From Ruminococcus flavefaciens (GTDB taxonomy: Bacteria; Bacillota; Clostridia; Oscillospirales; Ruminococcaceae), in contig CADBAC010000014.1 in the NCBI GenBank assembly GCA_902792495.1, forward strand, positions 1 to 11,161: a DNA stretch of 11,161 nucleotides, read 5' to 3'. A program made the position numbers and the translations under genes. Positions 4,939 to 7,457 of this stretch are shown piece after piece (the stretch's first letter is position 1; each line of letters begins with the position of its first letter). The notes beneath the pieces are model-generated. The model saw nothing but the letters and a program-made list of their open reading frames with translations, did no database searches and was not told where the DNA came from.

Positions 4939-6969
4939 TTATTCCTCAAAAGCAGTAAGGATACGCTCGATGCGCTCCATAAGATCGTCTGTGAGTACCT
5001 TGTTCTCCTCAAGCTCGGAGATGATATCCTGACCGTAGCTTCTGATGTATGTCATAAGCTCGTTTCTGTGTTCACGCAGTTCCTTCAGTGGGATGCCCTT
5101 GAAGAAGCCGTGCTGAGCGGCATAGAGAAGTATTACCTGCTCGTAGTGCGGAAGCGGATTGTACAGCGGCTGTTTCAGCAGCTCTGTAAGCATACGTCCG
5201 TGGTCGAGAAGGTCTGTTGTAGCCTGATCCAGTTCCGATGAGAACTGAGTGAATATCTCCATTTCCTTGAACTGCGCAAGGTCGATACGGAGATTGCCTG
5301 CGGCCTTCTTCATAGCCTTTGTCTGTGCGGCACCGCCGACACGGGATACGGAAAGTCCGTAGTTCACCGCAGGACGCAGACCGCTGTTGAAAAGCTCGCT
5401 CTCAAGGAAGATCTGACCGTCTGTGATGGAAATTACGTTGGTCGGGATGTATGCGGAGATATCTCCTGCGAGAGTTTCTATGATAGGCAGGGCTGTAAGT
5501 GAACCGCCGCCGTGCTCGTCATCAAGACGGCTGGAACGTTCAAGCAGTCTCGAATGGAGATAGAATACGTCACCCGGGTAAGCCTCACGTCCAGGAGGTC
5601 TGTGGAGAAGCAGCGACATTGCACGGTAAGCAACGGCGTGTTTCGACAGGTCATCATATATAATAAGTACATCCTTGCCCTTTGACATGAAATACTCAGC
5701 CATAGCTGTACCCGAATAAGGAGCAATGTACTGGAAAGGCGCAGGGTCGCTGGCAGAAGCACAAACTACTACCGAGTAGTCCATAGCGCCGTATTTTTTA
5801 AGTGTGCCCACTACCTGAGCAACAGTTGAGGACTTCTGACCTATTGCAACATAGATACAGATAACGTCCTGTCCCTTCTGGTTTATCATGGTATCAACAG
5901 CGATAGAGGTCTTACCTGTCTGTCTGTCGCCTATGATAAGCTCACGCTGTCCACGTCCGATAGGGAACATCGAGTCTATGGCAAGTATACCTGTCTGTAA
6001 AGGTACATTTACCGATTTACGCTCGATAACGCCGGGAGCTTCACGCTCAATGGGGAAGTAATCGTCAGCCTTGATATCGCCGAGACCGTCGATAGGCGCA
6101 CCGAGAGCGTCAACTACTCTGCCGAGGAGCTCATCGCTTACGCCGACACCTGCACGCTTGCCTGTGCGAACAACGGAAGAGCCCTCTGTAAGGCCATGAT
6201 CATCGCCGAGAAGAACGACTCCGACTGACTTTTCCTCCAGATTCTGAACGATACCTCTTACGCCGTTCTCGAATTCAACAAGTTCGCCGTACATAACGGA
6301 ATTCATGCCGTGAACTCTTGCGATACCGTCACCGAGACGGGTGATGAATCCTGTAGCGGTAGCGCCTGACTTCACCTCGAAGTCCTTGACCTCGGTCTTG
6401 AGAATGGATATGATATCGCTGTTCTTTCTGTCCTTTGGCGCATTTCCGCCGTCAACGTATTCGGCAGCCTTTGTCTGGAGAGTTTCCTTCATCTGACGGA
6501 GACTTGTACGGTAGCTCTTATCGTACTCGATATCGCCTGCTGTCAGGATGAAACCGCCTATGATATCGGGGTCCTTGCGGTATTCGATATCAACGTCCTC
6601 CTTAACGAACTTCTCCATGATGAATTTCTTCAGGTCAGCCTGCTGTGACTCTGTAAGGGGAGTAACATAGCGGACAAGAGCCTTGATGCTTCCCTGCTTT
6701 TCGATGAGGACATCGTTGTAGTCCTCCAGCAGTTCAGCCATATTTGCGATCTGTCCTTCCCTGACAGCGTTCATCATGAACTTCTGAATCGATTCAGGGA
6801 AGATCTGAGTTATGATATTGCGCTTTTCTTCGTGGGTAACAAGGGGATTTGACAGAGTATCGGCAACATCCCCTACCTCAGTGAGTATCTTCTTTGTCTT
6901 CTCGCAGTCCTCCTGAGAGATATCCAGGCGAAGAAGCTCATTCAGGTACTCTTTTGCGTAGTCCTTCAT
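4939..6969 (-). CDS. atpHA: Fused ATP synthase F1 delta-alpha subunit
   Basis: One uninterrupted 676-residue frame encodes two ATPase subunits. Residues 1 to about 170 are delta (stator cap joining F1 to subunit b): [18 protein letters not shown] (40-57), the Ile/Gly motif DIIGGFIL (135-142) and a final helix. Residues from about 184 on are alpha (non-catalytic nucleotide-binding head subunit): DFEVKSG (196-202), GDGIARVHG (213-221), Walker A GDRQTGKT (347-354), and [13 protein letters not shown] (533-545) with the arginine finger at R543. The linker (about 171-183) is Gly/Asp/Lys-rich. The alpha part is about 493 residues, near normal. No ATG with a ribosome binding site exists at the junction. 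The closest possibility is a GTG at 6375 (V199) with AAGGA 7 bases upstream. Its ATG overlaps the atpF stop codon by 1 base. Delta is normally present once and alpha three times per enzyme, so this fusion raises a stoichiometry problem. Confidence 0.95.
6421..6459 (-). other. Delta-alpha fusion junction (linker)
   Basis: Codons about 171-183 encode the short hydrophilic linker ([13 protein letters not shown]) joining the last helix of delta to the first helix of alpha. There is no in-frame stop, ATG, GTG or TTG here. An ATG at the AAATGCG stretch and a TGA in the ACGTTGACG stretch occur only in other frames, and the two are not in a relation that a single indel would turn into separate delta and alpha genes. 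Confidence 0.75.
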
Positions 6970-7457
6970 TATTTGCCAACCTCCTCATTTGAGAGGAATT
7001 CGTCAACAAGACGGCGGTTCTTCTCGTCGTCAACATTAGCGGCCACGATCTTTGAAGCAGCTTCGATAGCAAGATCAGCGATCTCGGACTGAGCCTGACG
7101 GAGAACCTTCTTTCTTTCGTTTTCGATCTCCTTGTCGGCCTCTGCCACCTTCTTATCGGCCTCTTCATGAGCCTTCTTTATGATAGCGGCTCTTTCGGAT
7201 TCAGCGTCATCATGAGCCTTCATGATGATATTCTTAGCTTCTTCCTTAGCCTCGCCGATAGTATTCTCGTACTGTTCTTTCAGTTCCTCGGCTTCTGTTC
7301 TTGCCTTCTCGGCTGAATCGAGGTTCTCCTGAATAGTGCGAGTACGCTCTTGCTTCATTTTATTCAGTGGTTTGAAAAGGAATATTCTCAGAAGCACAAA
7401 CAAGATAATAATATTTGCAACAGCCTCGAAAATGCTCCAGAATTCAAAATTAAGCAT
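6969..7457 (-). CDS. atpF: ATP synthase F0 subunit b
   Basis: Subunit b is the peripheral stalk that holds F1 still against rotor torque. The 162 residues fit the family. A single N-terminal membrane helix (about 9-28) ends in LFKPLNKM, and a long, charged, Ala-rich coiled coil (about 35-145) follows, rich in Glu, Lys and Arg with the typical [13 protein letters not shown] pattern. The C-terminal part should contact delta. The ATG follows AAGGAGG at a suitable spacing, and the stop overlaps the start of the delta-alpha gene (TAATG), indicating translational coupling. Only one b gene is present, as expected for a homodimeric b2 stalk. Confidence 0.96.

Follow-up and report, generated by a model that had tools for sequence, protein, structure and literature searches.

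Rotary ATP synthases are asymmetric in a basic way, with one delta subunit for three alpha subunits, and this 1:3 ratio is held to set how many peripheral stalks there are and, with them, how many protons an ATP costs. In ordinary enzymes the single delta sits on the symmetry axis, where its N-terminal region touches two of the alpha subunits and its C-terminal region the third, and it binds the b2 dimer (PMC12229609). The same paper describes the system that is closest to the one presented here. Ueno et al. (2025) cut the N-terminal domain (NTD) off the delta subunit of Bacillus PS3 and fused the remainder to every alpha. The engineered enzyme has up to three stalks (PDB 9JC1, 9JC2), its H+/ATP ratio is roughly doubled (5.8 versus 3.0), and it synthesizes ATP at half the proton-motive force (PMC12229609). 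They argue that the NTD limits the stalks to one, and name as natural cases Acidaminococcus fermentans and the UniProt entries G4Q3K6 and A0A1I2C5T3 (PMC12229609).

The locus analyzed here lies in a stretch of 11,161 nucleotides from Ruminococcus flavefaciens, the whole of which is referred to as the window. As in the engineered PS3 protein (deltaDeltaN-alpha), the C-terminus of delta is joined to the N-terminus of alpha through a short linker, and by the same logic all three alpha subunits would carry a C-terminal domain (CTD) of delta. The engineered form, however, lacks the delta NTD (residues 2-104) and the C-terminal domain of epsilon, whereas the window protein keeps a complete, folded NTD. 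The natural cases, which could be compared by their published description, are in-operon delta-alpha fusions like ours, but the A. fermentans fusion is reported to be without the NTD that Ruminococcus keeps.

Other known arrangements are more distant. In some mycobacteria and Gordonia delta is likewise fused to an operon neighbour (PMC5709465; PDB 7nkd and others), but there the partner is b and the delta:alpha ratio stays 1:3, whereas b is a separate gene in the window. The N-ATPase operons share the lack of a free delta gene, yet they start with beta and epsilon, include two extra genes, and have delta either absent or fused with b (PMC11738941), in contrast to the standard F-type order found here. 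The ordinary atpH-atpA pair of Clostridia has the gene order and domain set of the window but consists of two genes with their own starts; the separate alphas that we read are 55-71% identical to the window alpha.

The fused gene and its operon

The window gene is a genuine full-length delta-alpha fusion (Table 1). A preliminary description of this DNA had claimed that delta and alpha form one protein in which both parts are complete, and the frame bears this out, as it contains a two-domain delta and a complete alpha. The delta NTD matches the fold of PS3 chain 6n2y_I and the CTD matches the engineered fusion 9jc1; together with a match over positions 19-172 of the 172 in the profile, these two folds place the part in the delta/OSCP family (PF00213). 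The alpha part contains the Walker A motif, GDRQTGKT. The whole-protein AlphaFold model has low confidence in the nucleotide domain of alpha (mean pLDDT 67.9, 26 rows) and served only for delta, the linker and the first alpha helix. The N-terminal segment of alpha, which directly follows the linker, is the part that binds delta in ordinary enzymes. That such a link is sterically plausible, as had also been proposed, agrees with the engineered delta-alpha enzyme (PDB 9JC1), which works. It is plausible that the fusion fixes the stator covalently to the head.

Table 1. Features of the fused gene and of the surrounding ATP synthase operon (positions in the window).
Feature	Position	Strand	Remarks
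Fused delta-alpha gene (atpHA), 676 aa	4939..6969	-	single open frame; OSCP and alpha domain matches
Delta NTD, six helices, residues 1-93	6691..6969	-	AlphaFold helices within 3-91
Delta CTD (b2-binding), residues 94-173	6451..6690	-	AlphaFold strands 95-150, helix 153-174
Linker, residues 174-183	6421..6450	-	pLDDT <50 at 175-178
Alpha N-terminal segment with helix, residues 184-206	6352..6420	-	alignment to canonical alpha N-termini
Alpha barrel, nucleotide-binding and C-terminal domains, residues 207-676	4942..6351	-	contains GDRQTGKT
Met160, sole ATG/GTG/TTG from -25 to +5 of the alpha start	6490..6492	-	no Shine-Dalgarno
AGGAGG, Shine-Dalgarno of fused gene	6980..6985	-	
atpC, epsilon, 136 aa	2040..2450	-	
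atpD, beta, 463 aa	2463..3854	-	
atpG, gamma, 302 aa	4019..4927	-	
atpF, subunit b, 162 aa	6969..7457	-	stop overlaps start codon of fusion
atpE copy 2, subunit c, 75 aa	7492..7719	-	
atpE copy 1, subunit c, 75 aa	7746..7973	-	protein identical to copy 2
atpB, subunit a, 251 aa	8035..8790	-	
Frame of 128 aa	9002..9388	-	between atpB and a GDP-mannose dehydratase-like gene

The operon is intact and reads a-c-c-b-(delta-alpha)-gamma-beta-epsilon; with a, c, b, delta, alpha, gamma, beta and epsilon all in one operon, the locus encodes an F-type ATP synthase. A Shine-Dalgarno-like stretch is present at seven of the eight genes, the exception being the gene for a.

Some further features of the operon were observed. 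The tandem c genes sit in a 246-nt repeat of 93% identity. Among the eight Ruminococcus loci L042-L049, two c motifs were found in four (L043, L044, L045 and L047) and one in L046, L048 and L049, while the L042 locus ends before c. The c subunit contains the carboxylate of helix 2 (ALAEATAIY); it has neither the Gln nor the Ser of the Na+ motif, and would read as the proton type. The C-terminal tail of subunit a (EEEEHEGKKEKKEKKRKNLAS) is highly charged, and such a tail is present in four of six other a subunits (L050, L062, L091 and L108, not L073 and L104). The 128-aa frame upstream of atpB gave no NCBIfam match and only a sub-threshold match to DUF1664, and searches of the window for Rfam families and for tRNAs gave none.

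Occurrence in the genus

Since the genome from which the window derives is fragmented (a bin of 531 contigs with a completeness of 79.6%), the join between atpH and atpA might be suspected to be an artefact of assembly or sequencing. The distribution of the fusion makes this extremely improbable. In a sample of 100 Ruminococcus genomes, the window's own included, a delta match was obtained in 95 and a fused frame in 91, among them a genome of three contigs (G035). A separate delta accompanies the fused one in eight of the 91 and is the only delta in four other genomes; the five genomes without a delta match are 64-82% complete. In three of the 91 (G033, G036 and G061) the frames look cut or shifted. 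The best 120 of 7,989 scored proteins, own included, are all fusions of 674-678 aa that have the same four domains and cover the whole query; they come from Ruminococcus wherever an organism is named, and the names given to the listed homologues are 'subunit alpha' or 'Multifunctional fusion protein'. Moreover, fusions occur in other lineages in genomes that are complete or in one contig (L057, which is complete, and G749, G618 and G367). The preliminary description considered that near-identical relatives with separate genes would speak against a real fusion; such relatives were looked for and not found, and the separate-gene rows of the genus in the tree described below (five, from 12 loci) fall in another ATP synthase clade. 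The genome G045 holds two fused copies on different contigs and is perhaps a mixed bin (4.6 Mb, 6% contamination).

Full-length and short fusions in other lineages

The fusion, whose spread in related genomes the preliminary description proposed to check, extends well beyond the genus. A contig scan by similarity to the window protein yielded at least 588 relatives, and the following counts refer to the best 80 loci and are not population frequencies. A full fusion, with 175-194 codons open before alpha, is present in 26, a fusion without room for the NTD in 30, and separate genes in 24. Of the short loci, 29 have 83-127 codons before alpha; the thirtieth (L118) is truncated at the end of its contig, and was counted through its CTD. 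The full-fusion group includes Ruminococcus, Lachnospira, Pseudobutyrivibrio, Agathobacter and Oribacterium, and the short-fusion group Butyrivibrio, Shuttleworthella, Absicoccus and Mogibacterium. As far as the contigs extend, the genes for a, c, b, gamma, beta and epsilon flank the fused gene in these loci. All five short fusions that were compared with Pfam (L073, L076, L088, L104 and L108) match only the OSCP profile positions from 98 on. Named strains have both forms: the records of Butyrivibrio hungatei DSM 14810 contain a fusion without the NTD and those of Pseudobutyrivibrio xylanivorans DSM 14809 one with it.

Searches with a profile of the junction gave a similar picture. At least 35 of 391 genomes of the class, own included, match in one stop-free frame; among the matches listed, nine are of full size (frames of 671-691) and one (G423) is cut by a contig end. 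A sample of 398 genomes of the phylum added at least eight cases outside the class among the matches listed, and the seven of these that were retrieved are fused, of the short size and accompanied by their own a, c and b. When a short fusion from another class served as the query, seven proteins were obtained, none of which is named Acidaminococcus. From the family, class and phylum searches 34 fusion-bearing genomes of other groups were chosen. The fusion is the only atpA and the only OSCP match in 19 of them, whereas the other 15 have a second, separate operon. The short form accounts for 17 of the 19, including three single-contig genomes, and in these 17 no OSCP match besides the fused CTD was found.

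In one NTD-less clade (L091, L100, L106, L108-L110, L114, L116 and L119-L121) the c subunit has a long, signal-like N-terminal extension, with frames of 123-172 aa, and the frames of subunit a are about 272-308 aa. The possibility that the long c consists of duplicated hairpins was rejected: it has one hairpin besides the extension, and therefore offers no c-ring compensation. Also set aside was L156 in G066, a frame of 758 aa that matches OSCP weakly and gave no match to any ATP synthase query.

Origins of the fusion

In a quick tree of 97 alphas, from which the N-termini had been removed, the 15 Ruminococcus fusions form one clade (support 100). Their nearest rows are separate genes of Anaerovorax (L061) and of a Clostridia bin (L082) (support 90), while ten separate rows of the genus and family lie in another clade (support 100). 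Because of these two placements, the fused operon looks like a replacement of the family's own operon rather than a change within it. That the fused type is not nearest to the separate type of the family, and that eight genomes of the genus hold both, suggests that the replacement was horizontal.

Other fusions are nested within groups with separate genes, for instance that of Onthocola (L052) among Mediterraneibacter and its kin, and two short fusions, L076 and L105, are placed among full ones (support 99 in the 97-alpha tree, 94 in a quick tree of 80 rows). On the latter tree the AU test rejected a single origin of all fusions (397 log units, p 3e-37) as well as a single origin of all short fusions (269 log units, p 2e-29); the groups were set by gene structure, though after both trees had been seen. 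Parsimony on the 80-row tree counts ten changes between fused and separate, a number that does not tell gains from losses and of which seven are forced by starred branches, and with 27 of the 77 inner branches drawn open the number of origins is only a range. Judged by gene structure and phylogeny, delta-alpha fusions are thus widespread in Clostridia and arose repeatedly, and many are without the NTD. No free delta without the NTD was noticed among the loci read, which fits an order in which the fusion came first and the loss of the NTD later; besides these loci, there is one family match with a 146-aa frame (in G275).

Selection on the fused domains

The rates of evolution differ between the parts of the fused protein. 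In 25 usable, overlapping pairs out of 27 Ruminococcus fusion rows, with a median dS of 0.8-1.2 that is near saturation, dN/dS is 0.164 for the delta NTD (residues 1-100), 0.060 for the CTD (101-170), 0.362 for the linker (171-183), 0.059 for the N-terminal segment of alpha and 0.047 for the rest of alpha. The NTD is therefore under purifying selection and still matters.

A comparison with separate deltas of the same family revealed a change in the CTD. Its divergence relative to that of alpha is 1.99 in the Ruminococcus fusions versus 4.36 in the separate deltas (13 and 27 disjoint pairs, p 1.5e-5), and a repeat with subunit b as control gave 1.97 versus 4.56 (12 and 18 disjoint pairs, p 0.00035). 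Scaled to alpha, the CTD thus evolves about half as fast in the Ruminococcus fusions. In the repeat, neither the rate of b (p 0.51; 12 and 18 pairs) nor that of the NTD (p 0.63) differed between fused and separate. Relaxed selection on the NTD after fusion was likewise not supported when all full fusions were compared with all separate deltas (p 0.47). In the other full fusions the CTD/alpha ratio is 3.25 (8 pairs), a small drop, and NTD/CTD is 1.07, not above the values for separate deltas in two sets (1.12 and 1.57). The slow-down of the CTD is thus mainly a Ruminococcus result, as it is clear only there. These sets include row L014, which in its alpha part diverges from the other rows beyond alpha residue 333.

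One chain or two

As there is one delta site on an ordinary head, it is relevant whether free alpha is available besides the fused chain, and the preliminary description had listed among its options that alpha is also made separately. A second atpA was sought in 28 Ruminococcus genomes, chosen from those whose only delta match is the fused one, and was found in none. They are the window's own, which is only 79.6% complete, and 27 with a completeness of at least 96%; the eight genomes with an extra separate delta were left out of this set. Only one atpA scores above the curated cut-off in each of the 28, and its frame is fused and 671-685 aa long. Further weak matches in 26 of them, with frames near 460 and 590 aa, look by their size like the B and A subunits of a V-type enzyme. 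They are missing from G013 (98% complete), which may have no rotary ATPase besides the fused enzyme. In the eight of the 91 fused genus genomes and the 15 of the 34 other genomes that have a separate delta (and, in these, separate alphas too), free subunits could be supplied from there.

Free alpha could also be made through translation initiation within the fused gene. In 75 fused loci, of which 45, including the window's, are full and 30 are without the NTD, start codons (ATG, GTG or TTG) were sought around the beginning of the alpha part, in a range of -25 to +5 codons. No start-like codon is present in 21 of the 75, or in 15 when the range is widened to -35 to +8, and 43 of the 54 loci that do have one in the narrower range show no Shine-Dalgarno-like stretch at any. 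The window itself offers the in-frame ATG of Met160, and such an ATG occurs 15-25 codons ahead of alpha in 22 of the 27 Ruminococcus rows; yet this Met belongs to the last delta helix, its distance to alpha varies, and in the window it has no Shine-Dalgarno. A Shine-Dalgarno-like stretch accompanies some junction start codon in five of the 27. As no start is common to the lineages, internal initiation was rejected as a mechanism conserved across them. The test is weaker for Ruminococcus alone because a Met near the end of delta is common there, and the rejection is less firm for that genus. On balance the separate production of alpha is disfavoured, and we consider internal initiation very unlikely.

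Alternatively, cleavage in the linker after translation might restore the ordinary delta1-alpha3 stoichiometry. The linker is indeed variable and predicted to be flexible, but it is not conserved in length or sequence in the fused rows compared, and these reveal no cleavage site in common. Moreover, cleavage would leave an excess of delta, and would explain neither the absence of the NTD from so many fused forms nor the constrained CTD. We therefore regard it as improbable, if somewhat less so than internal initiation.

Probably three deltas per head

The reading that we prefer, with a probability of roughly two in three, is that this F-type ATP synthase has the full-length fusion in the roles of both delta and alpha, and that each F1 contains three delta-alpha chains. 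Three NTDs cannot share one axial site, and at least two would have to be displaced. In such a head one delta would be arranged as in ordinary enzymes, with its NTD in the central dimple and its CTD on the b2 stalk. The CTDs of the other two would remain bound, each to the N-terminus of the alpha that follows it, and their NTDs would be displaced from the dimple. The slow CTD can be read as a domain that is now permanently built into each of the three alpha positions, with one NTD continuing in the ordinary role. The tether would make the binding of delta permanent and, in the long run, the NTD dispensable, which would explain the repeated loss of the NTD in related fused lineages.

A further-reaching possibility is that both extra CTDs bind b2 and a as well, so that the number of stalks rises to two or three and the H+/ATP ratio increases; full-length fusions would then be the step by which gut anaerobes evolved, more than once, an NTD-less multi-stalk form. 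The engineered deltaDeltaN-alpha enzyme provides the precedent, with its up to three stalks and its ratio of 5.8 (PMC12229609). The specific constraint on the Ruminococcus CTD after fusion, and the related lineages without the very domain that is said to limit the stalks to one, point in the same direction, and b and a are present as single genes. However, the window protein retains a folded NTD under purifying selection, a domain that restricts the stalks to one according to PMC12229609, and subunit b shows no change in rate. We therefore consider more than one stalk doubtful for the window enzyme; the chance of extra stalks would be higher in the short fusions.

Significance

The preliminary description named no earlier report of a delta-alpha fusion. 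The NTD-less type, however, is in print (PMC12229609). A natural fusion that keeps the NTD is absent from the parts of that paper that were available. In the open-licence literature, searched by title and the start of the abstract, we found no report of the full-length fusion, of its scale and repeated origins, or of a delta-alpha fusion in Ruminococcus.

At the level of the genes, most sampled genomes of one genus of the gut and rumen have removed the asymmetry between delta and alpha. Other Clostridia have removed it independently, and in many cases without the domain that is thought to enforce it. The finding also bears on annotation, as operons that seem to be without delta may hold fusions that are named 'subunit alpha' in the databases. 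Because fusions are present in the records of named strains, the native enzymes are directly testable. In place of a single stator anchor the enzyme may have three, an arrangement that was recently engineered in the laboratory and that has so far been no more than suspected in nature.
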